Below, piece by piece: positions 8,203 through 59,744 of a stretch of DNA of 64,000 nt. This DNA comes from Saccharothrix deserti. Its GTDB lineage: Bacteria > Actinomycetota > Actinomycetes > Mycobacteriales > Pseudonocardiaceae. Each line of letters begins with the position of its first letter. Positions within the stretch are counted from its first letter, which is position 1. The notes beneath the pieces were generated by a model. It did not search any database. It was given only the letters and a program-made list of their open reading frames with translations, and had not been told where the DNA came from. Made by a program: the position numbers and the translations under genes. Location of the stretch: assembly GCF_009769385.1 (NCBI RefSeq), contig NZ_VKAB01000039.1, positions 1-64,000 on the forward strand. Direction: 5' to 3'.

Positions 8203-8218
8203 TCGCTCGGGGGGATTC

Positions 8219-11623: not shown

Positions 11624-11641
11624 GACACCAGTGTAGGGCAG

Positions 11642-11696: not shown

Positions 11697-11739
11697 CCGG
11701 CAGACATGCGAGGTTGCCTCGCCAGACGGATGGAGTCAG

Positions 11740-11988: not shown

Positions 11989-12188
11989 TGGCAGTGACTC
12001 AGAACGACCTGGGTGGTCAGTCGCACCGGTTCATGACGGTGTCCGTTCCGTCCGGGCGGCTGGTCGTGGACTTTGCGGCGTTGACCGACCTGGTGCGGGA
12101 GATCGTGCAGCGCGAGGTGGGGACGGCGCTGGCCGACCGGGAGCGTCGGAACGGCGTCATCGTGCCGACCGGATCGGAAGCCGCGTGA
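11988..12188 (+). CDS. hypothetical protein
   Basis: 66 aa from the ATG at 11988 that overlaps the preceding stop. One short strand/helix unit (FMTVSVPSGRLVVDFAALTDLVREIVQREVGTAL) followed by a basic tail that ends VPTGSEAA. It overlaps the next start by one base. The tight packing supports that it is translated. No function can be given. Confidence 0.6.
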   Translation: MAVTQNDLGGQSHRFMTVSVPSGRLVVDFAALTDLVREIVQREVGTALADRERRNGVIVPTGSEAA

Positions 12189-12622
12189 TGGCGGGCAAGC
12201 GGTTCCCGTGGGTGCTGACGCAGTCGGTGCCGTGGGCCGAGGGCGCGCAGTACACGCGGGGCACGCACGACGGGTTGCCGCTGCTGTCCTACGGCTGTGC
12301 CCCTCGGGACAAGCTCGCGACGTTCCGGCAGTTGCGCGCGATGGGCTTACGACCCAACGGTCAGGACCCGGTGGCGGTGCTGTACGTGCGGCACAACGCA
12401 TCGAAGAAGACGGTGTTCGCGTCGCTGTACCTGATCGCCAAGGCCGCGCCGGTCCGGCCGATGACCCCGGCGAAGTGGACCGCGCTGGCCAAGGCCAACC
12501 TCGCGCGCCGCATCTGCCGCATCTGCGGCAAGGACCCGCTGTACCCGCTGCCGACCAGCACCCGGTTGTGCTGGCCCTGCTTCGAAGCAGAGGGCGGCCT
12601 GGAAGACCTGGAGGCGGCGTGA
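12188..12622 (+). CDS. RRQRL-type zinc-binding protein
   Basis: 144 aa. It matches the actinomycete element family named after an RRQRL motif: LSYGCAPRDKLATFRQLRAMGLRPNGQDPVAVLYV, then AKAAPVRPMTPAKWTALAKANLARRICRICGKDPLYPLP and a second CxxC pair (CWPCF). The two CxxC pairs form a zinc ribbon. Here the name motif reads F-R-Q-L-R-A instead of RRQRL. These proteins are common in AICE transfer operons; the function is unknown and DNA binding is likely. The start ATG overlaps the previous stop. Confidence 0.8.
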   Translation: MAGKRFPWVLTQSVPWAEGAQYTRGTHDGLPLLSYGCAPRDKLATFRQLRAMGLRPNGQDPVAVLYVRHNASKKTVFASLYLIAKAAPVRPMTPAKWTALAKANLARRICRICGKDPLYPLPTSTRLCWPCFEAEGGLEDLEAA

Positions 12623-12735
12623 CGAGCCTCCGAACCGCGTTTCTGAACACCTCGGACCGGCGGCCGACTCCGGCCAAGAAGACACCGCCGGTCCTGGTCT
12701 CCAACACCCACGAGAGCAGGCAGGAGAGCACCAGC

Positions 12736-35069: not shown

Positions 35070-35142
35070 GCGCTCGTAGCTCAACGGATAGAGCATCTGA
35101 CTACGGATCAGAAGGTTGCAGGTTCGAATCCTGCCGAGCGCA
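35070..35142 (+). tRNA. tRNA-Arg(ACG)
   Basis: 73 nt: acceptor GCGCTCG/CGAGCGC, anticodon loop CTACGGA with ACG, T-loop TTCGAAT. The discriminator base is A followed by CTA, whereas the two distal att copies read G followed by CCA. The gene is the attachment target of elements 3 and 4; its last 41 bases (35101-35141) recur at 50267 and 59695. Confidence 0.95.
35101..35141. repeat. att site in tRNA-Arg (tRNA-proximal copy)
   Basis: 41 bp from the anticodon loop to the acceptor 3' strand, identical at 35101-35141, 50267-50307 and 59695-59735. The three copies delimit two elements in tandem. Confidence 0.95.
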
Positions 35143-35158
35143 CTAGAGTAAGTCCAGG

Positions 35159-44842: not shown

Positions 44843-47185
44843 CTATGGGCGAATCCTGAGTCGTGCAGGTAGACGAACTTGTTGAGTTAGAAGTTGGTGT
44901 AGATTCGCATGAACAAGATGCTGGTCTTCCAGTGTTACGGTCAGTGCATACGACTGCTCAAGGTAACGAGGGTCGTTTCTGGCCCAAGTCGCTGCGCGAT
45001 GAGTGACCGCGACATAGAAGATATCGTCATCGTTGACGAACGAGTTAGTCATAGTCCAGCTGCGCACTTGCAGCGTACTGCTTGCTACGAAATCGCTGCC
45101 AGGAATTAGGGGAGGGCGTCTGCGGTCTCTGATTGGATCCAGGGCATTTGTGGATTCTTGACGTCGTAGTACTTCTCGGAGTTCGTCAAGATCGATATTG
45201 CGGTAAAGGTCAACCTGCATATTGGCGTGGAGGTACTCGCGACGTTGACGTCGCACCGGAGGGTCAAACGCCAGCGCTATGATGAGTGTACGTTGGCTAC
45301 CACTGCCTCGTCGGAAAACTTCAGGAACCGGTACCGGATGCAGGTGCACGGTGTCGACAGGCATGGCACCGTCGTAAGTCATTGTCGCGCGTCGATTTCC
45401 GCTATTGATGGCACGTTCTGTATCGGGGCGTCCCAGTCCGAATCGAGCAGCCTTGCGGTGCTCCTCGACGTTATCTGCTGACGTATCGGGCAAACGTGCG
45501 CTACCGGCTAGCAGCGCTCGGATTAGGTTGGCCGAAGCATCAGGATAGGCGTGCGTAATGTCAGCTGCAATGCGCGCCACGGCTGGTGCTGCGTAGCTTG
45601 TCCCGTTGCAAGCTTTGAACAGTTGTCCGTTCGTCGAATTTATTGCCGTACTGACGAGGCTGGCACCCATATCATTGGTGACCACATGCCCGAGATCGCT
45701 CAAGACGAGGTTTCCGCCGTAGTGAACTACTTCTGGCTTGTTGCGTCGCCGTTCATTCGATCCGGTTCCTGGGCCGGTGCGACTAAAAGGTGATACTTGA
45801 TCTGCGCTGGCGATGGCTTGCCATCCCAGGCGATTCGACCCTATCTCGGCTACTCCTTCACTGAGTGCCAAGGAGCCGACAGTAAGGGCGAGGGCTGCGG
45901 GTGCGGGTTCAGAAAGTCGATGTTCGGGAGTGTCGAGGTATTTGGGGTAGTCGTCAGCAGCGTGATGGCCACTGGGTGTCATGGCGCTAAGGGAGTGGAA
46001 AACTACATTTCCCGTAGGAACGACTACCACAATATTGAGTTCTCTAACGAGTTCGTCAATGGTCTCGGTAAGGGCGTCAAGGTGAATATCGGAGTAAGGT
46101 TCGCTATAGCCGACCGACAAGTTGAATATTCTTACGCCGTAAGTCTTGTGGAGGTGGCGAATTCCTTTTTCGACGAGCGTGTGTGGAAAGTCGCTAACTG
46201 CAAACCGTGGGGCACCGGAAGGGTTATTTGGATCGGGTTCCAGAATTCGCGCTACGCGCACTGTTCCGTAGGCTTTGAAAGGCGAGCCTTCGCGCAATTC
46301 TTCGTGAAGAAACGGTAGAAGGACACGGCCGACCACTTCGCTACCGTGATCACCAGGCTGCTGCCACGGGTAGTTGGGCGGTCCGACAGGGTCCACGGAT
46401 TCTACAAGGCCGTATAGCAGTGGATGGGCAGAGGCGGGGGCATCGTCGAGCACGCCAACTGCAGCCGATGCCACGGTAATTCGATGGGGTAGGTCCTCAG
46501 ATTGGAGTGTGCGCCAATCGCGAAAATCAAGGAATGGTACAGGAGGGGTGCGGACCAGTTCCACTACACTGGTATTAAGTAGATCTTCGAGACCTTCCGC
46601 ATTGACACGTGCACGAATCAGGTTTCGTCGAGGGCTAACGGAACGAAGTTGAGCCTGAACTTCCGTTTGTGCAAGCACTGCATCAACGATGGAGGCGCGT
46701 CGCCGTGCTTCCGTTCCGTCTGGTGAAGGCCAAATGATAACGTCTACGAGAAACTGTCCATCAGGTGGCGGGGCAAGTCCAGGGCCGCGACGATCCTCCG
46801 GTCCGTAGGGTTCTATATCGTTAATCAGGTCGACGAGCGAATATAGTGCTCCGGTTCGAGCATATTCTGCAAGCGCTACGGCGAGTTCATTCGTTCCATC
46901 GTTACTGAGTACGAAGTATGTGTAACTCACGGTTTCGCCGAGAACTTGGAGTTTTCGCGCTTCGAGCGAATTTTCCTGTGGTCGACCAGCGGCGCGAATC
47001 TTAAAAACGAGACTTGGGTCGACGCCTGCGTCGAGGCGGCGCGGTGCCGTGACAACCTGCTGCAATTCTGCTTGCAGGTGGGCACCATGCTGCTGTCGGT
47101 TCCTCGGCACTGGCGTGCCACCTCCGCCGCCAGCTCGCCGAGACCCGACAGGGCGTGGATCGGGTAGCAGCAGGTGACTAGGCAT
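44843..47185 (-). CDS. ietS: S8 subtilisin-like serine protease, IetS-type
   Basis: 780 aa, ATG with AAGGAGG at good distance. The catalytic triad is visible: Asp in AVGVLDDAP (near 247), His in PGDHGSEVVG (near 280), Ser in CNGTSYAAP (near 530), oxyanion Asn in VVVPTGNVV. The N-terminal roughly 230 residues and C-terminal roughly 200 residues flank the protease; no signal peptide. Directly upstream (22-base gap, same strand) is an AAA ATPase. An AAA ATPase plus S8 protease pair of these sizes is the layout of IetAS, described as an incompatibility locus of Agrobacterium Ti plasmids and as an anti-phage system. The DNA is clearly A+T-richer than its surroundings, which indicates separate acquisition. 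Confidence 0.85.
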   Translation of the reverse strand: MPSHLLLPDPRPVGSRRAGGGGGTPVPRNRQQHGAHLQAELQQVVTAPRRLDAGVDPSLVFKIRAAGRPQENSLEARKLQVLGETVSYTYFVLSNDGTNELAVALAEYARTGALYSLVDLINDIEPYGPEDRRGPGLAPPPDGQFLVDVIIWPSPDGTEARRRASIVDAVLAQTEVQAQLRSVSPRRNLIRARVNAEGLEDLLNTSVVELVRTPPVPFLDFRDWRTLQSEDLPHRITVASAAVGVLDDAPASAHPLLYGLVESVDPVGPPNYPWQQPGDHGSEVVGRVLLPFLHEELREGSPFKAYGTVRVARILEPDPNNPSGAPRFAVSDFPHTLVEKGIRHLHKTYGVRIFNLSVGYSEPYSDIHLDALTETIDELVRELNIVVVVPTGNVVFHSLSAMTPSGHHAADDYPKYLDTPEHRLSEPAPAALALTVGSLALSEGVAEIGSNRLGWQAIASADQVSPFSRTGPGTGSNERRRNKPEVVHYGGNLVLSDLGHVVTNDMGASLVSTAINSTNGQLFKACNGTSYAAPAVARIAADITHAYPDASANLIRALLAGSARLPDTSADNVEEHRKAARFGLGRPDTERAINSGNRRATMTYDGAMPVDTVHLHPVPVPEVFRRGSGSQRTLIIALAFDPPVRRQRREYLHANMQVDLYRNIDLDELREVLRRQESTNALDPIRDRRRPPLIPGSDFVASSTLQVRSWTMTNSFVNDDDIFYVAVTHRAATWARNDPRYLEQSYALTVTLEDQHLVHANLHQLLTQQVRLPARLRIRP

Positions 47186-47207
47186 CGTGCGCCTCCTTGA
47201 GCAGGCG

Positions 47208-48185
47208 TTACCAGGGCCGCGCGGTCACAACTGCGATCGCATCGGTGATATCGCCGGGCAGGACCTCATTGTGACCCCGTAGGAGCGCGGCGCGGCGAGC
47301 GTCTGCGGCTAGCTTCTCCACGGCTGCATGGGGCAAGCCCTTGAGTGCGCTGGCTGTTTTGTCAATATCGACTCCGCGATGCGGGACGGGGCGAAGTCGA
47401 AGACGGAGTAGCCGGCGCAGTTCATGTACAGAAGGAAGTCGGAAGGTGAAGACTTCGTCGAAGCGACGCCACAGTGCCGCGTCAAGAAGACCGGGGTGGT
47501 TAGTAGCTGCGAGCAGAAGACTGGGGCCGCGGTAAGTGTCAATCATCTGCAAAAATGCGGTTACTACGCGTTTCATCTCACCATGCTCACTGCTGTCGTC
47601 GCGAGAGCGGCCGAGAGAGTCGAACTCATCGAAAAGTACAACAAAAGGAGCCTGGTTGGCGTAGTCTAGAACACGCCTAAGATTACTTGCTGTTTCTCCT
47701 AGGTAAGATGAAACGACAGCATCGAGACGTACCAAAAGAAAAGGTCGTCCCAGTTCTGTGGCGAGTGCCTCTGCCGCAGTGGTCTTCCCACACCCTGGTG
47801 GTCCCTGTAGAAGTAGCCTCTGACGCCTGGGTATGCCCGCAGCGTCCAGGTCTGGCCATCGACGGACCTCTTCGACCAGTTGGCCTAGGGTGGCTGCAAG
47901 TTCGGGAGCTAGGACAAGATCTTCGATGAGCCGGTCTGGTGTACGCACCTCAGCAAGCGGCCACTCTCCCTCCCGGTCCTTCGGAGGCTCTGGAAGGATT
48001 ACGGTGCTACCGGTATCGACCGTGCCACCTACGGCAAGGAGCTTCTGGAGATCGCGCGCCAACGCGTGATGCTGCTTGGCCTGCTCTTCCTCGATGATCT
48101 CAAGGGCCGCGCGACGGAACGCCAGCTCATCCCGGGTATGGAACGCCCGAAAGAGTGTCTTCAAGTGTCTGCCGGCCATGACCAT
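47208..48185 (-). CDS. ietA: AAA+ ATPase, IetA-type
   Basis: 325 aa from the ATG at 48183-48185; the frame stays open to 48428 and the true start is uncertain because no strong binding site is seen. N-terminal helical part HLKTLFRAFHTRDELAFRRAALEIIEEEQAKQHHALARDLQKLL, then the AAA module: Walker A LLLQGPPGCGKTTAAEALA, Walker B APFVVLFDEFDSLG, sensor 1 LLLAATNHPGLL, Arg finger WRRFDEVF, C-terminal lid. It probably activates or loads the protease encoded next. The A+T-rich composition is shared with that gene. Confidence 0.82.
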   Translation of the reverse strand: MVMAGRHLKTLFRAFHTRDELAFRRAALEIIEEEQAKQHHALARDLQKLLAVGGTVDTGSTVILPEPPKDREGEWPLAEVRTPDRLIEDLVLAPELAATLGQLVEEVRRWPDLDAAGIPRRQRLLLQGPPGCGKTTAAEALATELGRPFLLVRLDAVVSSYLGETASNLRRVLDYANQAPFVVLFDEFDSLGRSRDDSSEHGEMKRVVTAFLQMIDTYRGPSLLLAATNHPGLLDAALWRRFDEVFTFRLPSVHELRRLLRLRLRPVPHRGVDIDKTASALKGLPHAAVEKLAADARRAALLRGHNEVLPGDITDAIAVVTARPW

Positions 48186-48393
48186 GATGCTAGGGCGTCG
48201 GGCTGCGCCGTCCCACACAAACTCTCCGTACCGGAGTTTCGCATGCAGGTTGGTGCGCGGGTGTAGCACGCCGGTTCCAGCTGAGATCTCTTGGAGTTCG
48301 CCGCAGCATCCTGAGATGGGTGGCTGGCAGTGACCTGACGGGGGATGCGCCCTGCAACGGCAACAGGCGACCTGTAGATCACTCCACTGAGTC

Positions 48394-49071
48394 TCACGTG
48401 GGCTCAACCACATCGTCCTCACCGTCAACGGTTGCCGCGTTGATATCGGAGGTGACGCGGCTCATCGCTAGAAGGGCAAAGCCGGAGATAACCATGAGGC
48501 CGTCGAGTACCAGGGGGCCGACTGCTGCTGCCAGTGGGCCGTAGTGCCAGGCCAGTAGGAGGTCTCGGAGGTGGCCGTAGGAGATGACGGCTGAGCCGAG
48601 GGCCACGGTGCCGGTGCCGCCGAAGCGGGCGAGGGTCCATTGCCAGCCCTTGGGCCAGGGGATGCGGGAGAGGACTTCTACGGAGAGCAGTAGGCCGATG
48701 GGCCAGACTGCGGCTCCGATCTGCGGGGGCAGTCCTGGTGACCAGCCGGTGGGGTGGTGTTCGGCTGGTAGCCAGGTGTGGAGGACGTTGGCGGCGATCG
48801 ACATGACCGAGCCGAAGACGAAGCCTGCCCAGGCCACCAGGCGGCCGTCTGTGGTTCGGGCTGGTGGAGTGGCTGGTGAGAGTGGCGTGGAGGTGTCGCC
48901 AAGGCTGGTGTCCTCCGTCGCCAGCTCCGCCAGCGCTTTGCGAACTGCGTGATCGGTGGCGCCGGTCAGGCGAACCAGGGTGGGGCGGCCTGGTGGTGGT
49001 TCGCCAGCTGCTCGCGCCGCTTCGAGCGCCTGTCGGATCTGGGTGACGAGTTCTGGGTTGGGTGCGGTCAC
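48394..49071 (-). CDS. DUF2637-type membrane protein (Spd-like)
   Basis: 225 aa from the GTG at 49069-49071, overlapping the HTH stop. N-terminal DNA-binding-like helices (LVTQIRQALEAARAAGEPPPGRPTLVRLTGATDHAVRKALAEL) are followed by about four membrane helices (GRLVAWAGFVFGSVMSIAANVLH, IGAAVWPIGLLLSVEVLSRIPW, GTVALGSAVISYGHLRDLLLAW, AAAVGPLVLDGLMVISGFALLA). The order HTH-like part plus membrane part equals that of the AICE 2 protein at 13217. Such proteins accompany tra/rep genes in actinomycete elements. Confidence 0.8.
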   Translation of the reverse strand: MTAPNPELVTQIRQALEAARAAGEPPPGRPTLVRLTGATDHAVRKALAELATEDTSLGDTSTPLSPATPPARTTDGRLVAWAGFVFGSVMSIAANVLHTWLPAEHHPTGWSPGLPPQIGAAVWPIGLLLSVEVLSRIPWPKGWQWTLARFGGTGTVALGSAVISYGHLRDLLLAWHYGPLAAAVGPLVLDGLMVISGFALLAMSRVTSDINAATVDGEDDVVEPT

Positions 49072-50266: not shown

Positions 50267-50307
50267 CTACGGATCAGAAGGTTGCAGGTTCGAATCCTGC
50301 CGAGCGC
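50267..50307. repeat. att site (middle copy) between elements 3 and 4
   Basis: 41 bp identical to the 3' part of tRNA-Arg(ACG). It continues GCCAC, i.e. G plus encoded CCA, as does the copy at 59695 (46 bp shared by these two). The 5' half of the tRNA is absent. Confidence 0.95.
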
Positions 50308-50315
50308 GCCACCTC

Positions 50316-50346
50316 AAACCCGCTCTCACCAGCGGGTTTGTTTTTT
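50316..50346 (+). terminator. terminator after middle att copy
   Basis: AAACCCGCT (50316-50324) pairs with AGCGGGTTT (50331-50339), followed by G and seven T. It fits the end of a tRNA transcript on the plus strand. Confidence 0.85.
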
Positions 50347-50354
50347 CTCGCTGC

Positions 50355-51897
50355 TTAGCTCGTGACCATTTCGCTGTGAGACGGCTGTTGTGTGCCCGAT
50401 GTGTGCCCATCGGTTCCGGTCCGACGAGTGACCAGACCGGCGATCGTCTCTGCGGCATTCCGAGTGACTTCGGGAAGCACCGTCGAACAGGTGTCACTCG
50501 TCACAGTGATCGAGCTGTGGCCCAGCATCTCCTGAACCGTCTTCATCTCGACACCAGCCGCCAGGGCGAGCGTCGCCGCTCCGTGGCGGAGGTCGTGCAG
50601 CCGGATCGGCGGGAGACCAGCCTGAGCCGCCAACACGGCGAACCGGTCGGTGACCCACGACGGACGAAGCTGCTCACCGTTCCTCTGCGTGAACACCCGC
50701 CCAGACTCGACCCATGCCGGGCCTGCCGTCAGGCGCTCCGAGGCGCGTTGCGCGCGGTGCGCCTTCATCACCTTCACAGTGGCGGCGTCGAGGGCAACGG
50801 TTCGCTCTCCAGCCTCGGTCTTCGGGTCGCTCTCCTCGACCTCGTAATCCACCTCGGTGAGCTGTTTCGCCACCTGGAGGGTGCCCGCGTCCAAGTCCTC
50901 GTCTTCTGTCCGCAGCCCGCACACCTCACCTCGGCGCAGCCCTCGGAAGGGTGAGCACGTGCCACATCGCGTAGAGCCGGTCGTGCTTGGCGTGGTCGAG
51001 GAACTGGCTCGTCTGCTCTGGAGTCCAGACCATCACGGGCGACGGTCGCACGCCGGTGGCCTGCCACTGCTCGACGCGCTCGGCGGTCCATACCAGCGGC
51101 TTGGGTCGCTTTGAGGGGATCTTGAAGTGCGCGGCGGCGTTGAAGGTGATCAACTGCTGTGCGATGGCGTCGTTCAGCGCCGCGCGCAGGGTCGCCCTGA
51201 TCCGCTGACGGCTCGACGGTCCGACCATCCGCCGGTACGGCGGCAGGCTCGCCAACTGCTCGCGCAGCTTGCGCTTCTCGCTGCGGACGCTCGTCCGCTT
51301 GATCTGCACCTCCAGTTCCTTGCGGTCGAGGTTGTTCGCCCGGATGACTTCGTTCTGGTCCTCGATCGCTTGGAACATCCTGGCGACGTGGGCGACTTGC
51401 AAGCGGTCGATCCGGACGTCGCCGATGTTGGGCTTGATGTAGAGGCGGACGTGGCTTTCGTAGCTGACGGTCGTGGCGCGGCGGTGCTGCTCCGACGCCA
51501 TCCACTGATCGAGCCATTCACCGACCGTGATCCGGTTGACGAGGTTCTGACCGGTGCGCAGGCGGCGCTTGGTCTCGTCGTAGTCCGGGATCGGCTCCTT
51601 GTTGGCCGCGACCTGGACGAGCAGCGCGGCGATGGCGTCGCGTCCCTCGTCGTCGTCCTTCTCCGGGATCGCCAGGAGCGCGCGCACCTTGTCGAGGTCG
51701 GCCTGTGCCTTCTCCACGGTGGCGTAGCCCATGCGCCGGAAGACTCGGCGTTCTCCGTCTGCGGTCGGGGGTAGTTCCTGACGGATGGCGAGGGTGCCGT
51801 GACCCTTCTTCCTGGCGTTCGGGCACGCCTTGCCGTACTGCTTGCCCGTGTCGGGATTCCGGCAGGCACAGCGGCGGGTGATGCTTCCCGCTTTCAC
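50355..51897 (-). pseudogene. int: broken tyrosine integrase (element 4)
   Basis: Two frames together give a full integrase of about 513 aa. The 5' part (GTG at 51897 down to about 50930: VKAGSITRRCACRNPDTGKQYG ... VWTPEQTSQFLDHAKHDRLYAMWHVLTL) and the 3' part (RGLRRGEVCGLRTEDEDLD ... HDLRHGAATLALAAGV) join if one extra base near 50948 is removed (CTCACCCTTCCGAGGG in coding sense). The break falls exactly at box I with the first catalytic Arg. Independently, the nucleophile site reads GHSSITVTSDTCSTVLPEV, where the family has Tyr in place of the Cys (a TAT to TGT type change). Both lesions make it inactive, and the missense change argues against a mere sequencing error. Confidence 0.88.
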
Positions 51898-52592
51898 CGG
51901 TTGGTGTCCTTCCTGTCGAGTTGGTCGAGTTCGTCGTTGGTCGGTGGGGTGAGACCGGCTCGGCGCATCGCGCGGCGAACGTTGATCAGGTCGCGCTCGA
52001 TGACCTGGGCGCGGTAGAGGTCTTCCGCGTCGGCCTCGATCAGCCGGGCCTGCCTGGTCTCGGGCGACTGGGCGAGTTCGGCGAAGCGGTGCGCGTTCAT
52101 CGCCCGCTGCTCCGACTCCGTCAGCGCGCGGATGAGCCGTTCGTGCCGGCGCAGGAGGTCGAGCTGTTCGTGGTTGTCCTTCGGTTCCTCCTCGTACCAC
52201 TTGTGGATGCCGGTTGCGGCGTCGTACTCCCCGCCGCCGCGTGGCTTGACGGGCTGGCGGCCTTCCCCGCTGAACCAGCGGATCGCGTGCCAGGGGTGTG
52301 CTGTCGCGCCGGGGGACCAGGTGACTTCGGCGTCGGTGTGCAGGGGGAACATCAGCACCACCGGGGGGACCAGGAGCGCCCGCGCGAGCACCGCCAGCTC
52401 GTCCACGGTGACGCCGCGACGTCGGCGACCGGTCTCGTCCGGCCGACCGGTCTCAATGCTGGTGATGGCGGAGAACGTCAGCCAGTCCGCGCCGAGTTCC
52501 TGGCACCGCTCGGCGAGCTGTTTGCGTGTCCAGCCGTGCCGATTGCGGTGTCGCTGGACTTCCTGCGCCACCGTCTCGCTCAGCTCGTGCAC
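51894..52592 (-). CDS. XRE family regulator upstream of int (element 4)
   Basis: 232 aa from the GTG at 52590-52592, which has AGGAGG 6 bases upstream; an ATG nine codons earlier is less well placed. HTH: VAQEVQRHRNRHGWTRKQLAERCQELGADWLTFSAITSIETGRPDETGRRRRGVTVDELAVLARALLVPPVVLMFPL. The C-terminus has a coiled helix (HEQLDLLRRHERLIRALTESEQRAMNAHRFAELAQ). It overlaps the broken int by 4 bases, as in element 3. It is intact although its presumed targets int and xis are not. Confidence 0.82.
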   Translation of the reverse strand: MHELSETVAQEVQRHRNRHGWTRKQLAERCQELGADWLTFSAITSIETGRPDETGRRRRGVTVDELAVLARALLVPPVVLMFPLHTDAEVTWSPGATAHPWHAIRWFSGEGRQPVKPRGGGEYDAATGIHKWYEEEPKDNHEQLDLLRRHERLIRALTESEQRAMNAHRFAELAQSPETRQARLIEADAEDLYRAQVIERDLINVRRAMRRAGLTPPTNDELDQLDRKDTNR

Positions 52593-52731
52593 TGTGTCCT
52601 CCTGGTGATTCCCTTGCACTGGCTGGACAGGCTCGGTAGCGTCCGGTCCTGTTCAGTAGAACGATCATGCCATATCGAGAGTGCAATTTGCAACATCGGT
52701 GCTGCGAAATGAAGTCTGAGTGTCTGGGGAG

Positions 52732-52940
52732 ATGACCCGCCGGGAACTGCTCGCGCTGCCGCCCTCGGTCGATCTGGTGACCGCAGGCCGTGCGCTCGGC
52801 ATCGGGCGGACGAAGACCTACGAACTGGCGAGATCCGATCAGTTGCCGGTACGCGTGCTGCGGTTGGGCAAGCACGTACCGCGTCGCAACGGCCGACCTG
52901 CTGCGGGGTGCTCGGCGTCAAGGAGGACGACGCCGCGTGA
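52732..52940 (+). pseudogene. xis: broken excisionase (element 4)
   Basis: Three frames are needed to read a normal Xis: RRELLALPPSVDLVTAGRALGIGRTKTYELARSDQLPVRVLRLGK, then after one extra base near 52870 TYRVATADLLR, then after one extra base in a GGGG run near 52912 VLGVKEDDAA and a stop at 52938-52940. The corrected protein aligns with element 3's Xis, and the corrected stop overlaps the next gene's GTG exactly as expected. Two independent +1 shifts. Confidence 0.8.
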
Positions 52941-53311
52941 CGCAGACGAACAGCGGCGGCTCCCCGGCAGGAGCCGCCGCCCGGCATCGAGAAGTGAACC
53001 CCGTCCAGCGTAACGGGACGGTCTACGGCGTGTTGGAGCTGCGCATTGACGCGCTCGGCGACGCGACCCCGGTACCGCTCGGCGTGCGCGTGCGAGTCGA
53101 TCTGGCGGACGCCCGATGGATCGACCTGGCGACGTTGGAACGTGCCGCACGGCTGACGTGGGGTGCGGCGGGCGTCGAGGTGGTCGGTCGGCACAGCGGC
53201 GCAATCGCCGAGGTCGTGCGGTACGTGCGCAGCGTCCATGAGCGCTACGCCCTCGCCGAGGTTGAGCACGCGCATCACATGGCGCGCTGGGGCCTCGGTG
53301 ATGCCGCGTGA
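52937..53311 (+). CDS. hypothetical protein (element 4)
   Basis: 124 aa, GTG overlapping the corrected xis stop. After a short basic start comes a compact domain: GVLELRIDALGDATPVPLGVRVRVDLADARWIDLATLERAARLTWGAAGVEVVGRHSGAIAEVVRYVRSVHERYAL. No family recognised. GTGA overlap with the ATPase gene shows the old operon xis, this gene, ATPase. The reading frame is intact. Confidence 0.62.
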   Translation: MTQTNSGGSPAGAAARHREVNPVQRNGTVYGVLELRIDALGDATPVPLGVRVRVDLADARWIDLATLERAARLTWGAAGVEVVGRHSGAIAEVVRYVRSVHERYALAEVEHAHHMARWGLGDAA

Positions 53312-54352
53312 CGCTGGCCTACGGCACCGATCCACCGAGCATCGAGACACCGCAGGGTAGGCACATCAGGCTCACCCCGGCTTCCGGTATCCGAATGCGC
53401 GCGGTGCGCTGGACCTGGCAGGACAGGGTTCCCGCGGGCTCCCTGTCGTTGGTGCCCGGTCGCGAGGGCATCGGCAAGAGCCAGTTCGCGTGCTGGCTGG
53501 CCGCCCAGGTCACCAACGGCACGTTGCCGGGCGCTCTGCACGGCGAGCCGCGACCGGTCATCTACACCGCAACCGAGGACTCCTGGGCGCACACTGTGGC
53601 GCCCAGGCTCGCCGCTGCCGACCTCGACGCGGTCTATCGGGCCGAGGTGGACGTGGACGGCATCATCACGGGCCTGACGTTGCCTCGGGACTGCGAGGCG
53701 CTGGGCGAGGAGATCACGGCGCGCGGCGTCGGCCTGCTGATCCTCGACCCGCTGCTGTCCGCCATCGGGACCGGGAGCTGCGGCAGGCCCTCGAACCACT
53801 GGCGCGCATGGCCGATCGCACGGGGTGCGCGGTGGTCGGGCTGGCCCACTTCAACAAGTCGGCGAGCCCGGACCCGCTGAACCTGATCACCGGAAGTCGG
53901 GCGTTCTCGGCTGTGGCGCGCGCCGTCTTGGCGGTCGCTCGCGACGAGGAGAGCGACGACGGCGCGTGTGTGATCAGTCAGGCCAAGAACAACCTCGGGC
54001 GGTTGGACCTGCCGTCACTGGGCTACCGCATCGAGTCCGCCGTGATCCCGACCGACGACGGTCCCGCCGAGGTCGGTCGGCTGGTCATGATGGGTGAGAC
54101 CGAGCGCACTGTGCGCGACATCCTCGCCGAGACCGGCATCCCGAGGCACGCTCGGAGCGCGACGAGGCTGCCGCGTGGCTGCGCGACTACCTGATCCAGC
54201 ACGGCGGTAGCGGCAAGGCAGCCGAGATCATCAAGGCCGCACGCGCGGACGGCATCGCCGAGGCGACGTTGAAGCGTGCCCGCAAGCGCGCCGGAATCGC
54301 GACCACCCGGCAGGGCTTCGGACAGGGGTCGGTCTGGTCACTCGACTTGTGA
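53308..54352 (+). pseudogene. broken RepA/KaiC-like replication ATPase (element 4)
   Basis: Three frames make one RecA-fold helicase-type ATPase of about 350 aa. Part 1 from the GTG at 53308 has Walker A VPGREGIGKSQFACWLAAQV, YTATEDSW and Walker B VGLLILDPLLSAI. Part 2 from about 53770 reads HRDRELRQALEPLARMADRTGCAVVGLAHFNKSASPDPLNLITGSRAF...VISQAKNNLG. Part 3 from about 54145 reads ARSERDEAAAWLRDYLIQHGGSGKAAEIIKAARADGIAEATLKRARKRAGI, ending at 54350-54352. The first break looks like a roughly 10-bp deletion between CCATCG repeats; the second is one base. Actinobacterial relatives are single proteins, so the gene is dead or split. Confidence 0.85.
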
Positions 54353-54362
54353 CCCGTTATCC

Positions 54363-54428
54363 GGATCACCATTCGGCCCGTTCGGATCACGTCACGGGTG
54401 CTGATCCGAATGAGCCGAATGGTGATCC
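54363..54428. terminator. bidirectional hairpin between convergent genes
   Basis: GGATCACCATTCGG (54363-54376) pairs with CCGAATGGTGATCC (54415-54428), and TTCGGATCA (54381-54389) with TGATCCGAA (54402-54410) inside. It separates the broken ATPase gene from the XRE-TPR gene. The remaining bases to 54577 have no gene. Confidence 0.65.
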
Positions 54429-54577
54429 CGACGAGCACCGTCGCGACCGGTCGGCAGCCTCCCCGCGCGCACGCGAGCAGTCCTGACCAGGGGTGGGGGA
54501 TGACCCCCCGACTGCCGTCCGCCCGACCGGTACGTCATAGCAGCTCGCGCTGTGTACGAAACTCGGGCGATCTCGGG

Positions 54578-55849
54578 TCACCGCCGCGCCGAGGACGGCG
54601 CGAGCTGATCGGTCAACCGCTGGAGAGCCGCGCGACCGTCCGCACTGACCTCGGCGAGACCGGCAGCGTCGGCCGCACGGATCGTCCGCTGCACCTGGTG
54701 CGGCAACCGGTGGACCTCGGCAGCGGTCAGCGCCGCTCGGAACGCCTCCGTCGCGCCGTCGAGATGCCGGGCAGCGAGCAGCACTTGCCCGGCGGTCACC
54801 CGCTCGATGATGTGCCACTGCGGTGCGACAGGTGGCCCGCTGACGTCGGTCTGCAACGCGCGCACGGCCTCGGCGGCGCGGCCGGTCGAGATCAGGCCGC
54901 GTAGTTCGATCTCCCGGAACGTGAACCGGTTGAACAGCATCCCGCGCCCCGCTTCCGCGTCGAGCAGGTCGCGGTAACCGGTGATCGCCTGGTCGAAGAG
55001 GTCCGCGTTGCCCTGTTCCCCCGCAGCACGCGCCAGCAGGGCGAACGCCGCGCCCTGGCCTTCCCGATCACTGGACACGGCCACAGCTCGGCTCAGTCGC
55101 GCGATTGCCGCGCCGACGTGGTCGGCCTTGCGCAGCTCGTTGCCGTGCATCCGGAGCGCGTGCGCGAGGAACACGGGATCGCCCAGCCGCTCGGCGACGA
55201 CGAGGGCCTTGCCGGTCCAGCGCGCCGCAGCGGCCAACCGCTCCTCGGGCAGGACGGTGCCCAGCGAGACGCCCAGCGCCGCCCTGCCCTGCCCGAGCAG
55301 GATCATCGTGTCGCGCTCGGCGCGGCCCTCGGCGGCGCGCGCCTCCAGCCTGGCGACGAGCGGCCACAGCTCGTTGACCGCGTCGACCGCACGTCCGGAC
55401 TGGCGGGCGATCTCGGCGAGTCGGATGGTCGAGTCACCGAACTGGATCATCGCGGCGAAGTCGGCATCGTCGTTGTCCGTCACGCCGAGCACGTGCATCG
55501 GCAGGCCGAGCACGCGCGCGATGTGGCGTCGGGTGGTGACGTCGCTGATGGTGCGCCGACCGGTCTCGATCATCGACACGTAGGTCTTGTCGTAGCCGAG
55601 CAGCGCGGCGAGCCGTTCCTGGCTGAGGCCGTTCACCCGTCGGTAGACGCGAAGGATCGTCGCCAGGTCACGAGTCCTCAGCGCCGCTGCCGCCTCGGGA
55701 GCCGACCACAGCCACACTGCCGGTGTCAGCGGGCGAACCGGCATGGTCGGCGGCGCGTGACGTGCGCTCGCGTGGCACGTCGGACAGACAGGCTCGACCG
55801 CGAGCCTGCTCAACTCGGCTCCGCACGACTCGCAGCGTCCGCCCGTCAT
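54578..55849 (-). CDS. XRE regulator with N-terminal zinc ribbon and TPR-like domain
   Basis: 423 aa. Residues 1-30 hold CESCGAEL...CPTCH (zinc ribbon). HTH at about 57-115: RTRDLATILRVYRRVNGLSQERLAALLGYDKTYVSMIETGRRTISDVTTRRHIARVLGLP. The C-terminal 280 residues are TPR-like (LGDPVFLAHALRMHGNELRKADHVGAAIARLSRA, GQGAAFALLARAAGEQGNADLFDQAI, LISTGRAAEAVRAL). Common actinobacterial regulator type. It is the second gene of a minus-strand operon after NUDIX (6-base gap) and probably controls the divergent oxygenase/radical SAM genes. Confidence 0.85.
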   Translation of the reverse strand: MTGGRCESCGAELSRLAVEPVCPTCHASARHAPPTMPVRPLTPAVWLWSAPEAAAALRTRDLATILRVYRRVNGLSQERLAALLGYDKTYVSMIETGRRTISDVTTRRHIARVLGLPMHVLGVTDNDDADFAAMIQFGDSTIRLAEIARQSGRAVDAVNELWPLVARLEARAAEGRAERDTMILLGQGRAALGVSLGTVLPEERLAAAARWTGKALVVAERLGDPVFLAHALRMHGNELRKADHVGAAIARLSRAVAVSSDREGQGAAFALLARAAGEQGNADLFDQAITGYRDLLDAEAGRGMLFNRFTFREIELRGLISTGRAAEAVRALQTDVSGPPVAPQWHIIERVTAGQVLLAARHLDGATEAFRAALTAAEVHRLPHQVQRTIRAADAAGLAEVSADGRAALQRLTDQLAPSSARR

Positions 55850-55855
55850 GAGCGG

Positions 55856-56278
55856 CTACCGGATCAGTTCCCGGTCGGTCTCGCGCAGACGCGCGAACCA
55901 ACTCGCGATCGAACGCTTGTACCCGTCCGGCATGTTCAGCCCCCGCACCTCGGACTCGGCGAACAGCCCGATCTCCTTGTGCTCGTGGGAAAGCACGGGA
56001 TCAGCGTCACCGTCCGGGTAGCAGCCGTAGGTCACGATGAACACGTTCTTCTCCGCTACGTTGATGTAGTACATCCACGTGTCGAGGATCGGCCCGGTGG
56101 TCACCTGCCACTGCGTTTCCTCGGCGATCTCCCGCGCCACGCACTCCTCGGGCGTCTCGCCGGGCTCGATCCGGCCGCCGGGTAGCTCCCACTCCTCGCG
56201 CTCGTTCTTCAGCAGCAACACCCTGTCGTCACGCACCACCACGCCCTTGATCGAGACGGGGTAGACGGGCTGGCTCAT
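55856..56278 (-). CDS. NUDIX hydrolase
   Basis: 140 aa. Complete Nudix box GGRIEPGETPEECVAREIAEETQWQV (GX5EX7REUXEEXGU form, with the last Gly replaced by Gln). Start at the ATG 56276-56278 (MSQPVYPVSIKGVVVRDDRVLLLKNEREEWELP). It hydrolyses X-linked nucleoside diphosphates. It shares an operon with the XRE-TPR gene and is divergent from the oxygenase gene, so it belongs to the cargo cluster. In a nucleotide-modifying pathway it could clean up or trim pyrophosphate intermediates. Confidence 0.88.
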   Translation of the reverse strand: MSQPVYPVSIKGVVVRDDRVLLLKNEREEWELPGGRIEPGETPEECVAREIAEETQWQVTTGPILDTWMYYINVAEKNVFIVTYGCYPDGDADPVLSHEHKEIGLFAESEVRGLNMPDGYKRSIASWFARLRETDRELIR

Positions 56279-56359
56279 CGGCGTTGACCTCCGGAAGGCG
56301 TGCGCGATCTGCTCACCCGCAACGTAGCAGCCGATCACCCGACACCAGGCGACGCTGTG

Positions 56360-56373
56360 TTGACAGCTTGTCA
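56360..56373 (+). promoter_or_regulatory. TTGACA with TGACA-N3-TGTCA dyad
   Basis: A -35-like TTGACA (56360-56365) overlaps the dyad TGACAGCTTGTCA (56361-56373) in the divergent gap between NUDIX and oxygenase genes. It is a candidate promoter and XRE operator; the -10 box is not clear. Confidence 0.4.
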
Positions 56374-56441
56374 CTGGACGTGCGCGATGGGATCGCGTTC
56401 CCATGATCTCCGCGAAACAAGCGTTTCGGGAGGTAGAGACG

Positions 56442-57194
56442 ATGGACAACCCCTTCGATGGCGGTTGGATCACGGCCGATGACGAGTCGGCAGTGGTTGG
56501 CGCGCTGAGTCGTCACGGCCTGGTGTTGGTGGAAGGGCTCGCCGACTCGGCCGACCTGCTCCGTCTCGCTCGCTCCGTCGCCACGGTCGTCCCGCATCGG
56601 GACAGCGCGTCGGACGGCGTCACGACGCTGGTGGACCTCGGTTCCGACCAGAACGGCGCGTTCGCCGGGTTCAGCTCGTGCGCGCTCGCGCCGCACACGG
56701 ATCGCTCCGGTGTCGCCAACCCGCCCGCCTTGCTGGTCTTGGGTTGCTCGCAGCCCGCGACGAGGGGCGGTCAGTGCGTGCTGATCGACGGGCAAGCCGT
56801 GTACGACACGCTCGCCGAGACCGCACCTGACGCGCTGGCGGCGCTGTGTGCACCCCGATCCGTGCTGTTCGGCGGTGCATCTGGCCACCTCGGCGCGGTC
56901 TTCACCGAGTACGACGGCGGACGGGTCACCATCAGGCTGCGCCAGGACGACCTCGTGCAGTTCTCGCCCGAGGTGAGCCGGTGGTTGCCGACGCTGCGAG
57001 CGGCGATCGACCAGCACGTGACCGAGCTGGACCTGTGCGCCGGACAGGGTTACATCCTCGACAACTACCGTTGGCTGCACGGTCGGCGAGCGTTCACCGG
57101 GCACCGCGTGGTGCACCGCGTCAACGCGAACCCGCATCCTCACCTCGGCATCCGGACCGGCATCCCCACCGAAGTACGGAGCGCTGCGGTATGA
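56442..57194 (+). CDS. TauD/TfdA-like Fe(II)/2-oxoglutarate dioxygenase
   Basis: 250 aa from the ATG at 56442 with GGGAGG upstream (an ATG at 56403 would add 13 residues). Facial triad: HTD in LAPHTDRSGV (near residue 85) and distal His in ILDNYRWLHGRRAFTGHR; the Arg that binds 2-oxoglutarate is in the same C-terminal block. LLVLGCSQPATRGGQCVLIDG is the usual strand after the first His. It hydroxylates or desaturates a small substrate. First gene of the plus-strand cargo operon; overlaps the next gene by 4 bases. Confidence 0.85.
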   Translation: MDNPFDGGWITADDESAVVGALSRHGLVLVEGLADSADLLRLARSVATVVPHRDSASDGVTTLVDLGSDQNGAFAGFSSCALAPHTDRSGVANPPALLVLGCSQPATRGGQCVLIDGQAVYDTLAETAPDALAALCAPRSVLFGGASGHLGAVFTEYDGGRVTIRLRQDDLVQFSPEVSRWLPTLRAAIDQHVTELDLCAGQGYILDNYRWLHGRRAFTGHRVVHRVNANPHPHLGIRTGIPTEVRSAAV

Positions 57195-57535
57195 GCGACG
57201 CGGCGGCGGTGCGCGCGTTTCCCGCCTTGGCGGGACTGGTCGCGATCCGGGACGCGGGATGGCAGTTCGTGCACCAACGTGTCGTTGACGGCGTTCCCAC
57301 CGAGGTTGACGGGTTCCGGCTGTGGCCGGACGGCCGGCACGACGCCATCCGCGTGCGCAGCAGCACCGACGCGATGGCGTTGCGCGCGGACGGCGACGAA
57401 CCGCCCGGCATCGTGTGGGAGCGTGCCGGTTCGTTGTCCGACGTGGTGGAAGGGCTGTTGAGCCTGCCCGCGCCGACCCAGCGGTTCGCCCCTCGCCTGA
57501 TCGTCGCGTCCGCTCCCGCGCTGTGGCTGCCATGA
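57191..57535 (+). CDS. conserved small protein of oxygenase operon
   Basis: 114 aa, ATGA overlap with the oxygenase stop. Single domain: GLVAIRDAGWQFVHQRVVDGVPTEVDGFRLWPDGRHDAIRVRSSTDAMALRADGDEPPGIVWERAGSLSDVVEGLLSLPAPTQRFAPRLIV...LWLP. Similar small proteins occur in other actinobacteria, but I know no function. The tight coupling suggests a partner or substrate-binding role for the oxygenase. Confidence 0.7.
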   Translation: MSDAAAVRAFPALAGLVAIRDAGWQFVHQRVVDGVPTEVDGFRLWPDGRHDAIRVRSSTDAMALRADGDEPPGIVWERAGSLSDVVEGLLSLPAPTQRFAPRLIVASAPALWLP

Positions 57536-57583
57536 CTCGACCGGACCTCAGCGACCGCCCCGCGGCGCACCCGGCGTGACCAG

Positions 57584-57868
57584 ATGTGCGTCTGCGGCTG
57601 GCAACTGATCGCCGTGACGTTGGCGTTGGTCGTGCTGGTCATCGGCTATGGCGAGATCGAGGGCCGCCGCCGAGCCCGCGCCAATGACGCCCGTTCCGCG
57701 ACAAGACCACCTGACCGCTTCGGCAGCACCGGGCGGAATCTCTCCCACGCCCGGCCGTCCGGCCGCCGAAGCCCTCGACGCGGTGGGAGGGCCGTCCGTC
57801 CCGACCCGGACAGCCCTCCCACCGCGTTCCCGGACACCACCACCAGAAGGGCTAGCAACTCCCCATGA
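57584..57868 (+). CDS. possible small membrane protein before radical SAM gene
   Basis: 94 aa. One hydrophobic helix (CGWQLIAVTLALVVLVIGYGEI) and then a long basic Arg/Pro-rich tail. The stop overlaps the radical SAM start (ATGA), which supports translation. Against it: the tail region contains a 15-bp perfect hairpin (57778-57827) and reads like noncoding sequence, and another frame (from 57648) is also open. It could be a leader peptide instead of a real protein. Confidence 0.35.
   Translation: MCVCGWQLIAVTLALVVLVIGYGEIEGRRRARANDARSATRPPDRFGSTGRNLSHARPSGRRSPRRGGRAVRPDPDSPPTAFPDTTTRRASNSP
57778..57827 (+). promoter_or_regulatory. 15-bp hairpin upstream of radical SAM gene
   Basis: ACGCGGTGGGAGGGC (57778-57792) pairs perfectly with 57813-57827 across a 20-base loop that itself contains CGTCC/GGAC pairs. 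It ends 37 bases before the radical SAM start. No U-tract follows, so an attenuator or mRNA-stability element is as likely as a terminator. Confidence 0.5.
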
Positions 57869-58947
57869 TCCCTACGGATCTGCCCGTTCACATCGAGCAA
57901 GACAAGACCGCTCGCGCGAAGGTGCTCGACGCCTGCGGTATGACGTGCACGTTCTGCCACAACGAGGGCACACCCGTTGCGGTGGACAACCGCCGTCGTC
58001 CTGTCGGCGACTTCACGATCGCCGGTCCCAGCGGGCGCATGTCGATCTACGCCGCCACCAACGGCGCGGCGTTCTTGCCTGCTCCGATGCCCGCGAACGA
58101 GCAGTTCGGGCACGCGCTGGTCGCGTTATGCGATGCGCTGCACCTGACCGAGGTCCACCTGACCGGCGGTGAACCCACCCTGCACCCCGCCATCGCGCGG
58201 CTGACGAAGATCGCCACCGAGGCGGGTTTGCGGGTCGGGATGACGTCCAACGGAGAGCACGGCGCGGAGGTGCTTCCCGACTGCGCCGCCGCTGGACTCG
58301 ACCGGGTGAACTTCTCGATCTTCGGTACGACGGCCGACGAACTCGCCGAGACTCAGCACGCCCGCTACCGCAATCCCGAACGTGCGCAGCGCAAGATCGA
58401 CGCCCTGAAACGCTCAATCGCCGTCTGTGAGGCGCACGGGGTCAAGGCCAGCGCGAACATCGTGGTGCTCGACTACAGCCACGCGCCGCGCGTGCACCGC
58501 CTGCTCGATGAGTACTCCCCGCACCTGTCGGTCCGGCTGCTCAACTCGCTGGACCACGGCACGGCCTCCGTCGAGGCCATCGAGCGCATCCTGGCTGAGC
58601 GCGGAGCTGTCGCCGAGGCGCACTACATCACCGCAGGCGTCTCCGGGGCGCGTACCGCCTACCGCCTCCCGGACGGACGGCGGGTGTATTTCAAGCAGAT
58701 TCGGCGCGTCCGGCTGCCCGAGACGTGCGCCGGATGCCGGTTCAACAACGACACCGACTGCCAAGAGGGTTTCTACGGTGTGCGGCTCTACTACGACCGC
58801 AACGGCCGCTACCAGGTCGGTGTCTGCATCCAACGGATGGACCTGTCCATGACCCTTGACGACTTCCTCACCGGGCCGGTGCTGGCAGAAGTGCTGGCCC
58901 TGCGTGAGGTCGAGTACGACCGACTCACCCGCCGCCACGCGGCATAA
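57865..58947 (+). CDS. radical SAM enzyme (MoaA-like core, C-terminal Cys cluster)
   Basis: 360 aa. The radical SAM motif CGMTCTFCHNEG (CxxxCxxC near residues 24-31) binds the [4Fe-4S] cluster; the SAM-binding region LTEVHLTGGEPTLHPAI (GGE) and MTSNGEHG, NFSIFGTT follow as in MoaA/PqqE-like proteins. The C-terminus has further cysteines (ETCAGCRFNNDTDCQEGFYGVRLYYDRNGRYQVGVCIQ) that may hold a second cluster. No precursor-peptide gene is obvious, so a small-molecule substrate is more likely than a peptide. Next gene 40 bases downstream encodes a CYTH protein, giving a probable pair. It is not a viperin by its cysteine motif. Confidence 0.88.
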   Translation: MIPTDLPVHIEQDKTARAKVLDACGMTCTFCHNEGTPVAVDNRRRPVGDFTIAGPSGRMSIYAATNGAAFLPAPMPANEQFGHALVALCDALHLTEVHLTGGEPTLHPAIARLTKIATEAGLRVGMTSNGEHGAEVLPDCAAAGLDRVNFSIFGTTADELAETQHARYRNPERAQRKIDALKRSIAVCEAHGVKASANIVVLDYSHAPRVHRLLDEYSPHLSVRLLNSLDHGTASVEAIERILAERGAVAEAHYITAGVSGARTAYRLPDGRRVYFKQIRRVRLPETCAGCRFNNDTDCQEGFYGVRLYYDRNGRYQVGVCIQRMDLSMTLDDFLTGPVLAEVLALREVEYDRLTRRHAA

Positions 58948-58987
58948 CGTCGGACCAGCACCGATCAACCAGGAAGGACGGCCGCGA

Positions 58988-59536
58988 GTGCCGATCGAGC
59001 ACACTGCGCCCATTGAGTTCGAAGGCAAGATCCTCGACGTCGATCCCGCCGAGATGGAACGGCTCATCCTCGACAAGGGCGGGCAGAAGGTCGGCGAGCG
59101 GTTCATGCGCCGCTACGTCTACGACATCACGCCCGGCGACCAGTCCAAGTGGATCAGGCTCCGGGACACGGGCGACGAGGTGACGCTGACCGTCAAGCAG
59201 ATCACCAGCGACGCCATCGACGGCACCCACGAGACTGAGGTACGCGTTGACGACTTCGACGCGACCAACGCCCTGCTCGGCGTGCTCGGGTTCACCGCGA
59301 AGTCGTACCAGGAGACCAAGCGCACGAGCTTCGTCCTCGACGGCGCGCAGGTCGAGATCGACACGTGGCCGCGCATCCCGCCCTACGTCGAGATCGAGGC
59401 CGGATCGAAGGACGAGGTCGTTCGGGTCGCCGCGCTGCTCGGCTACGCCGAGGAGGAGCTGACCGGGGAGAACACCATCAAGGTCTACGCCCTCTACGGC
59501 ATCGACCTGAACACCATCCCTGAACTGCGCTTTTAG
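58988..59536 (+). CDS. CYTH domain protein (class IV adenylate cyclase/triphosphatase-like)
   Basis: 182 aa from the GTG at 58988 with AAGGA upstream. The CYTH signature E-x-E-x-K is at the N-terminus (IEFEGKILDVD). Further tunnel residues: KWIRLRDTGDEVTLTVKQI, HETEVRVDDFD, KRTSFVLDGAQVEIDTWPRIPPYVEIEAGS, ENTIKVYALYGID. CYTH enzymes bind a triphosphate in a charged barrel (adenylate cyclase CyaB, thiamine triphosphatase, tripolyphosphatase). Last gene of the cargo; probably acts on a triphosphorylated substrate or product of the radical SAM enzyme. Confidence 0.88.
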   Translation: MPIEHTAPIEFEGKILDVDPAEMERLILDKGGQKVGERFMRRYVYDITPGDQSKWIRLRDTGDEVTLTVKQITSDAIDGTHETEVRVDDFDATNALLGVLGFTAKSYQETKRTSFVLDGAQVEIDTWPRIPPYVEIEAGSKDEVVRVAALLGYAEEELTGENTIKVYALYGIDLNTIPELRF

Positions 59537-59693
59537 GCATCATCAGGTGTGCTCGGTGTGTGCCCGAAGTGAGCCCGGACGCGCGATGATCACGCGGTAG
59601 AGATCGTCACCGAAAGGCAGCGAACCTGGTCTGACCTGCACAGGCCAGACCAGGACGGTAGCGCCCGGCAGCAACCATCATGATCGGGACGGA

Positions 59694-59735
59694 ACTACGG
59701 ATCAGAAGGTTGCAGGTTCGAATCCTGCCGAGCGC
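59694..59735. repeat. att site (distal copy), right end of element 4
   Basis: 42 bases match tRNA-Arg(ACG) 35100-35141, then G-CCA. It is followed by what is probably the original tRNA terminator and core DNA. Confidence 0.95.
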
Positions 59736-59744
59736 GCCACGCAG

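Follow-up and report, generated by a model that had tools for sequence, protein, structure and literature searches.

Radical S-adenosylmethionine (SAM) enzymes that rewrite nucleotides or nucleosides, such as the viperins, AbmM and ThmA, yield antiviral nucleotides and antibiotics. In Photorhabdus, three genes are enough for 4'-thiothymidine, namely thmA for a radical SAM enzyme, thmB, and thmC for a nucleoside triphosphatase, and thmC alone confers resistance (PMC12691670). Here we describe a stretch of 64,000 nucleotides (the window) from the 10.8-Mb genome of the soil bacterium Saccharothrix deserti (contig NZ_VKAB01000039.1, positions 1 to 64,000), in which the remains of a mobile element, element 4 (50267-59740), carry a two-gene cassette of 1.7 kb, termed cassette B, that encodes a radical SAM enzyme and a CYTH (triphosphate tunnel) enzyme. 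Like cassette B as we read it, the thm genes are a compact cluster that pairs a radical SAM enzyme with a nucleoside triphosphatase (PMC12691670); they differ in being gammaproteobacterial and in including the kinase-like thmB, whereas the hydrolase of cassette B is of the CYTH type, and the likeness is drawn from description. By analogy, thmA/thmC may be the closest worked example of a producer and its self-resistance for cassette B. We propose, with a probability of about 50%, that the radical SAM enzyme makes a modified nucleotide or nucleoside, that the CYTH enzyme is a protective triphosphatase, and that the cassette is outlasting a worn-out element 4. The two genes are:

57865-58947, forward strand: radical SAM enzyme with a MoaA/AbmM-like fold, 360 aa (predicted producer), from profile and predicted fold.
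58991-59536, forward strand: CYTH enzyme, 181 aa (predicted protective triphosphatase), from Pfam CYTH and predicted fold.

The predicted model of the radical SAM protein has the MoaA fold, and after MoaA the next entries in its list of structural relatives are AbmM and BlsE, both nucleoside enzymes. Its likeness to AbmM of albomycin biosynthesis (8wm2) is one of motif and fold, with 22% identity in the structural alignment. The CYTH protein belongs to the CYTH superfamily by its Pfam score (31.4 against a cut-off of 23.2), its ExExK motif and its tunnel residues; across 47 sequences E9 and E11 are invariant and K13 is present in at least 90%. Membership of the MoaA, viperin and CyaB families is ruled out by the NCBIfam cut-offs. 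The radical SAM protein lies far below those for MoaA (GTP 3',8-cyclase), whose auxiliary cysteine spacing also differs from its own. Relative to prokaryotic viperins (pVip) it scores below the viperin cut-off and has a CYTH partner. The CYTH protein is distinguished from Saci_0718, PH1012 and class IV adenylate cyclase by its linkage to a radical SAM gene, and the cyaB model also stays under its cut-off.

A profile search of genome contigs gave 116 radical SAM relatives, the best 80 of which (the 80 loci) were used to compare neighbourhoods; neighbouring open reading frames (ORFs) of less than 70 aa were left out, and a short precursor peptide could therefore escape. The relatives come from many actinobacterial genera and from Thermoactinomyces, Laceyella, Lihuaxuella and Shimazuella, members of the Thermoactinomycetaceae, which belong to another phylum than the actinobacteria. 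A CYTH gene is present in 78 of the 80 loci, following the radical SAM gene in 66 and preceding it in 12, at a spacing of no more than 100 nt in 77 loci and of 8.4 kb in one. Both genes are cleanly fused in one frame in six loci; L040 was rejected as a seventh fusion because its continuous frame holds only residues 1-260 of the radical SAM protein. L050, L064 and L069 have no adjacent CYTH gene but encode one elsewhere in their genomes. The first-pass annotation of the window had asked whether a gene set that included the pair is conserved as a unit outside element 4. For these two genes the 78 loci show that it is, and the condition under which the annotation's idea would have failed, a radical SAM gene never found next to CYTH or oxygenase genes elsewhere, does not hold.

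We investigated the dependence of each gene on the other in whole genomes. CYTH is present in all 19 genomes with the radical SAM gene that were examined (12, a further 3, and G418, G429, G430 and G439), and in none of the 12 tested Saccharothrix genomes that lack the radical SAM gene (18 such genomes exist), in a search that had no positive control of its own but used the profile that succeeded on radical SAM genomes. Among 60 genomes comprising G247 and its relatives, CYTH (E 1e-30) is present in 23, all of genus g43 (Nocardiopsis-like), and radical SAM in 5, all with CYTH, so that 18 of the 23 CYTH genomes have no radical SAM gene. The 29 CYTH matches in these genomes comprise 5 beside radical SAM and 24 orphans. 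Twenty orphans were analysed, the remaining four being two truncated genes, one with stops and one diverged copy. All 20 are full length without a stop, and 12 of the 13 tunnel residues are found in every copy and the thirteenth in 19 (K13 is Arg in one). The median pairwise ratio of nonsynonymous to synonymous substitution rates (dN/dS) is 0.176 for the orphans (190 pairs) and 0.123 for eight linked CYTH genes (27 pairs). Fragments of a radical SAM gene lie directly upstream of the orphan CYTH gene in L099, L109, L116 and L108, that of L108 spanning only 20 residues; a fifth remnant, in L120, is doubtful, with ~40% identity, in the CYTH frame and overlapping the CYTH match. A NUDIX-like match lies within 3 kb of 8 of the 20 orphans, in six cases 81-133 nt downstream on the same strand. 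In G018, a metagenome-assembled Saccharothrix genome, two contigs (C71 and C115; L091 and L092) carry a radical SAM gene that is truncated in one and frame-broken in the other, each beside a full-length CYTH gene, which, if not an assembly fault, is a further case of a lost producer and a kept CYTH. Because the radical SAM gene always occurs with CYTH in the genomes examined and CYTH often occurs alone, we propose that the pair follows a producer/protector pattern, as far as gene content can indicate one. As a separate observation, G247 has three CYTH copies and one radical SAM gene, and the extra CYTH gene of L099 adjoins what is left of a radical SAM gene after a large deletion in its interior.

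For the substrate, the product, the direction of the chemistry and the biological role, we infer the following scheme. The radical SAM enzyme would convert a nucleoside triphosphate, its probable substrate, to a modified nucleotide or nucleoside by radical chemistry of the MoaA, AbmM or viperin type. The triphosphate of this product would be the harmful, active form, and the CYTH enzyme would strip phosphate from it and thereby protect the producer. A NUDIX hydrolase, or in some Streptomyces loci a HAD hydrolase, would help in this removal, with expression under the control of an XRE-type regulator, which is divergent in most relatives. Competitors could be the target of the product as an antimetabolite, or it could work within the cell against phages or other elements. 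A wider proposal, which we hold tentatively and consider somewhat doubtful, is that the radical SAM-CYTH pair represents an undescribed mobile class of nucleotide antimetabolite, with a producer and a triphosphatase immunity, that is spread over actinobacteria and Thermoactinomycetaceae on tRNA-integrating elements and viral-catalogued contigs for conflict with phages, elements or neighbours; orphan CYTH genes would then be immunity kept after loss of the producer.

Element 4 is what remains of a mobile element that integrated at a tRNA gene and is kin to the actinomycete integrative elements (AICEs). Its boundaries and mobility genes are:

50267-50312, forward strand: attachment-site repeat (3' end of tRNA-Arg acg), inner boundary of element 4, 46 nt.
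50355-51900, reverse strand: tyrosine recombinase (integrase), broken; Phage_integrase 7.4e-15.
51894-52619, reverse strand: helix-turn-helix protein of 241 aa with an intact frame; its L005 counterpart is 94% identical.
52720-53013, forward strand: xis-like region, frame broken relative to L005; the label is that of the first-pass annotation, no family match having been run.
53308-54352, forward strand: replication ATPase (AAA_25), broken by two deletions that shift its frame; in L005 the frame is open over 358 aa.
59695-59740, forward strand: attachment-site repeat, outer boundary of element 4, 46 nt.

The 46-nt repeat corresponds to the 3' end of the tRNA-Arg(acg) gene at 35070-35143 and has three copies, of which the two that bound element 4 are 100% identical and the one within the tRNA gene (35101-35146) matches at 93%. 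Because the tRNA-Arg 3' end recurs twice more, at 50267 and 59695, two elements lie in tandem. AICEs of the pSAM2 type have in common with element 4 the insertion at a tRNA 3' end between attachment repeats, a tyrosine integrase, a replication gene, a tandem array, and xre and nud genes, the last two adjoining on the same strand here (54578-55849 and 55856-56473) as in the mdp-nud-xre cluster of AICEs. Element 4 differs in that its mobility genes are broken, the integrase by a frame break and a Tyr-to-Cys change. No ORF at 47-64 kb is similar to the FtsK-type protein (PF01580) of the Saccharothrix locus L088, although a divergent one could escape, as not every ORF was Pfam-scanned, and no mdp (metal-dependent phosphohydrolase) gene was found among the ten window proteins scanned, other ORFs being outside that scan.

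Relatives of the element 4 cargo occur in four further Saccharothrix genomes, at the same tRNA-Arg in L085 (G005) and at tRNA-Thr(cgt) in L005, L006 and L007. Each of these sisters is enclosed by a tRNA 3'-end repeat, of 18 nt (exact) in L005 and 37-51 nt in the others. Comparison with them confirmed the lesions that the first-pass annotation had described in the integrase, xis and ATPase genes. A frame break near 50.95 kb splits the integrase into the ORFs 50355-50924 and 50926-52200, and the catalytic-Tyr motif reads SDTCSTV where L085 has SDTYSTV. The xis region shows three single-base differences from L005, in which a 73-aa frame is open, and the two deletions that break the ATPase frame are seen in alignment with L005 as well as with L085. 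These lesions are read from the assembly, in which an error may exist at these positions. In L085 the catalytic Tyr is present, the integrase has an N-terminal frame break, and ~1 kb with xis and part of the helix-turn-helix gene is gone. L005 has open ATPase and xis frames and the catalytic Tyr; it was ruled out as an intact mobile relative because the N-terminal part of its integrase is read in a different frame. L006 gave no integrase match and has a partial ATPase, and L007 has only a 3' remnant of the integrase. The radical SAM and CYTH genes are open in all four sisters. The other cargo genes of element 4 are:

54578-55849, reverse strand: XRE-family helix-turn-helix regulator, 423 aa (set A); HTH_31 2.6e-9.
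55856-56473, reverse strand: NUDIX hydrolase (set A), shared core 55859-56275; PF00293 1.9e-18.
56403-57194, forward strand: TauD-type Fe(II)/2-oxoglutarate oxygenase (set A), likely start 56442; PF02668 9.5e-27.
57191-57535, forward strand: 114-aa protein of no assigned family (set A), with no match in Pfam, NCBIfam, PADLOC or PHROG at the thresholds applied.
57584-57868, forward strand: small ORF, with relatives in L005 and L085; in L008 and L009 the likeness covers roughly the first 30 codons.

All cargo frames are open, as the first-pass annotation had stated. Six genes (XRE, NUDIX core, oxygenase, 114-aa protein, radical SAM and CYTH) align with L005 without a gap over 4422 bases, whereas xis and the ATPase show several non-triplet gaps and the integrase two, one of them due to L005; we therefore consider the cargo to have been kept under selection. 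Against L085, in a comparison that omits the last 19 bases of XRE, the cargo has a single gap, which falls where the annotated oxygenase ORF begins, 5' of 56442 and in the overlap with the NUDIX ORF, the annotated start of which probably lies too far upstream. The argument for selection is made from lesions and not from dN/dS, which was computed for the window against L085, L005, L006 and L007. The contrast anticipated between cargo and mobility genes did not appear with L085 (0.164 for the cargo over 1457 codons and 0.199 for the mobility remnants over 908), and dN/dS was rejected as a discriminator. The totals against L005 are 0.153 for cargo and 0.396 for mobility genes, the latter including an integrase too divergent to count as an orthologue, and the other mobility genes range from 0.03 to 0.19; against L006 the values are 0.182 for cargo and 0.333 for mobility genes (169 codons, ATPase only). 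XRE values against the four sisters are 0.08-0.14.

The cargo is composed of two separable sets, set A (XRE, NUDIX, oxygenase and the 114-aa protein) and cassette B. Eight stretches of the genus were fetched for context, and in four of them, L086-L089 (G024, G020, G010 and G003), set A is found whole or in part without a nearby radical SAM-CYTH pair. G020 has both genes elsewhere in its genome, ~7 kb apart, and G024, G010 and G003 have neither; in L088 an FtsK/SpoIIIE-domain gene lies close to set A. Relatives of the 114-aa protein occur with the oxygenase in six loci (L005, L007, L085-L087 and L089), and those of the NUDIX protein occur in other loci. The oxygenase is present in 10 of 25 genomes of the genus (E 1e-30) but matches in just 6 of the 80 radical SAM loci, and L124 has XRE, NUDIX and oxygenase genes beside CYTH with radical SAM absent. 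The idea that the seven cargo genes form one obligate pathway is rejected, because the two sets separate. They are also adjacent, with CYTH first and at 50-60% identity, in Streptomyces L067 and L083, where oxygenase relatives of 54-56% identity adjoin the pair (the L083 match being in two pieces), an arrangement that hints at a functional link, though not an obligatory one.

In an even sample of the class, the radical SAM gene was found in 6 of 394 genomes, the window's own included, and the distribution of cassette B is therefore patchy; within the Saccharothrix genus group it was found in 7 of 25 genomes (E 1e-60). A tRNA gene is within reach in 24 of 84 loci, and in seven of those 24 the radical SAM gene is enclosed by a repeated tRNA 3' half (18-51 nt; tRNA-Arg, Thr, Ala or Lys). 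Of the 80 loci, 12 have integrase-like ORFs, some of them weak, and six share a cluster whose representative is a relaxase-type ORF. The radical SAM protein had no match among 72,556 plasmid records at E 1e-30 or among 50,697 phage records at E 1e-10. IMG/VR contributed six loci, three of them with the pair (L093, L094 and L095); the contig of L093 is also on record as bacterial, under L025. On L095, a contig of 122 kb, an Rsr-like RNA-binding protein (10999-12702; 2e-148, 495 bits against a cut-off of 900) is encoded near the pair. L096, also catalogued as viral, encodes a distant radical SAM relative (8001-8867, 32%) and gave no CYTH match. In Streptomyces and other records, the slot beside one regulator family holds a NUDIX gene (cluster c5) or, in six loci, a HAD hydrolase gene (cluster c11), suggesting that two kinds of phosphohydrolase can occupy one slot. 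The CYTH proteins of many Streptomyces radical SAM-first loci (L045, L047-L049, L051-L061 and others) have 34-40% identity to that of the window, and CYTH-first loci 52-60%; the divergent forms may reflect replacement or fast evolution.

Several observations weigh against the producer/protector proposal. The radical SAM protein scored 45.8 and 60.4 with the MoaA models (cut-offs 284.05 and 325.25) and 39.4 with the viperin model (cut-off 180), the CYTH protein scored 35 with cyaB (cut-off 57.95), and the stretch that aligns Arg17 with MoaA amounts to 2.2 bits by itself. Three of the four orphan CYTH genes left out of the analysis are truncated or carry stops, so not every orphan is kept; 15 of the 20 analysed loci have no radical SAM remnant at E 0.01, and the orphans may serve a job of their own. 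Up to 5 kb upstream, an XRE-like ORF is present in 52 of 73 loci (on the opposite strand in 50), compared with 6 of 69 downstream; for NUDIX-like ORFs the corresponding counts are 18 of 73 and 2 of 69. The association that had been suggested for NUDIX is thereby supported in part, but the six XRE-type and three NUDIX seeds were taken from the same neighbourhoods, so the counts are descriptive and not a test. The absence of a clear dN/dS contrast with L085 belongs here too. The earlier suggestion that mobility was lost while the cargo stayed under selection stands for the radical SAM-CYTH pair, open in the window and four sisters whose integrases are broken, remnant or absent. It does not extend to all of the cargo or to every genome: set A decays in L006, which lacks the 114-aa gene, the small ORF and the oxygenase end, in L086, where XRE is in pieces, and in L089, where XRE and the oxygenase are truncated, and the two broken radical SAM copies of G018 indicate that the cassette is dispensable there.

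The most credible rival, though in our judgement rather unlikely, is that the CYTH enzyme performs a second biosynthetic step, cyclising or trimming the radical SAM triphosphate to a signal or cofactor-like nucleotide; the fusions and tight spacing suit this as well as they suit protection, and so also count against our proposal. We consider it unlikely that the radical SAM enzyme acts on a non-nucleotide such as a peptide, an RNA 5' end or a cofactor while CYTH acts on a triphosphorylated partner, for example RNA. SuiB, PqqE and NifB, whose substrates are not nucleotides, and anSME are in the same structural list, which is a further point against a nucleotide product, and the structural relatives of the CYTH protein include RNA triphosphatases at low Z (8-10), but the nearest structures besides MoaA are the nucleoside enzymes AbmM and BlsE. 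It is improbable that the whole cargo is the element's own immunity or exclusion module. Genes of the xre and nud kinds do recur on AICEs, where the NUDIX protein Pif of pSAM2 blocks redundant transfer (PMC3218068), and set A is also found apart from cassette B, in the case of L088 close to the FtsK/SpoIIIE-domain gene. Such a module would account for set A but not for the radical SAM-CYTH pair, which has many different neighbours and is retained where mobility genes are lost. Least of all do we expect the genes to be unrelated hitch-hikers retained by chance on a decaying element, a view already disfavoured: the decay is recent, with mobility remnants still at a dN/dS of ~0.2, and parts of set A are gone in L006 and L089, whereas the 4422 gap-free cargo bases against L005, set beside several non-triplet gaps in the mobility genes, and the CYTH linkage in 78 of 80 loci speak against chance.

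One further feature lies between the small ORF and the radical SAM gene:

57778-57827, forward strand: strong RNA hairpin 5' of the radical SAM gene; minimum free energy -64.1 kcal/mol, z -4.9 for 57740-57870.

Stems are also present in L005, L007 and L085, and in L007 several positions are changed with pairing retained; the hairpin is possibly an attenuator or terminator. A family-wide hairpin at this place was rejected, as stems of at least 12 bp occur in 18 of 82 upstream stretches and 27 of 300 controls, with one clear kind in Saccharothrix loci only. No known RNA family reached gathering scores in 50-60.5 kb. In the neighbouring element (35.1-50.3 kb), an AAA ATPase and an S8 peptidase are encoded as a pair at 44843-48428 on the reverse strand; they resemble the anti-phage proteins IteA (2.3e-70) and IteS (2.1e-30), both under the NCBIfam cut-offs, and by this resemblance the tandem array may also hold a defence-like pair.

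No description of the radical SAM-CYTH pair was found in the open-access literature searched, and the available parts of PMC7159879 and PMC13118837 contain nothing on it. Nucleotide chemistry by a radical SAM enzyme that is partnered by a hydrolase is of a known kind; what appears to be new is the pairing with CYTH, the broad mobile distribution and the pattern of orphans. Cassette B includes its own candidate resistance enzyme and is compact enough to be expressed whole, and the one-sided pattern of loss makes the producer/protector reading directly testable. If that reading is true, a bacterial triphosphate tunnel enzyme would gain a concrete job.

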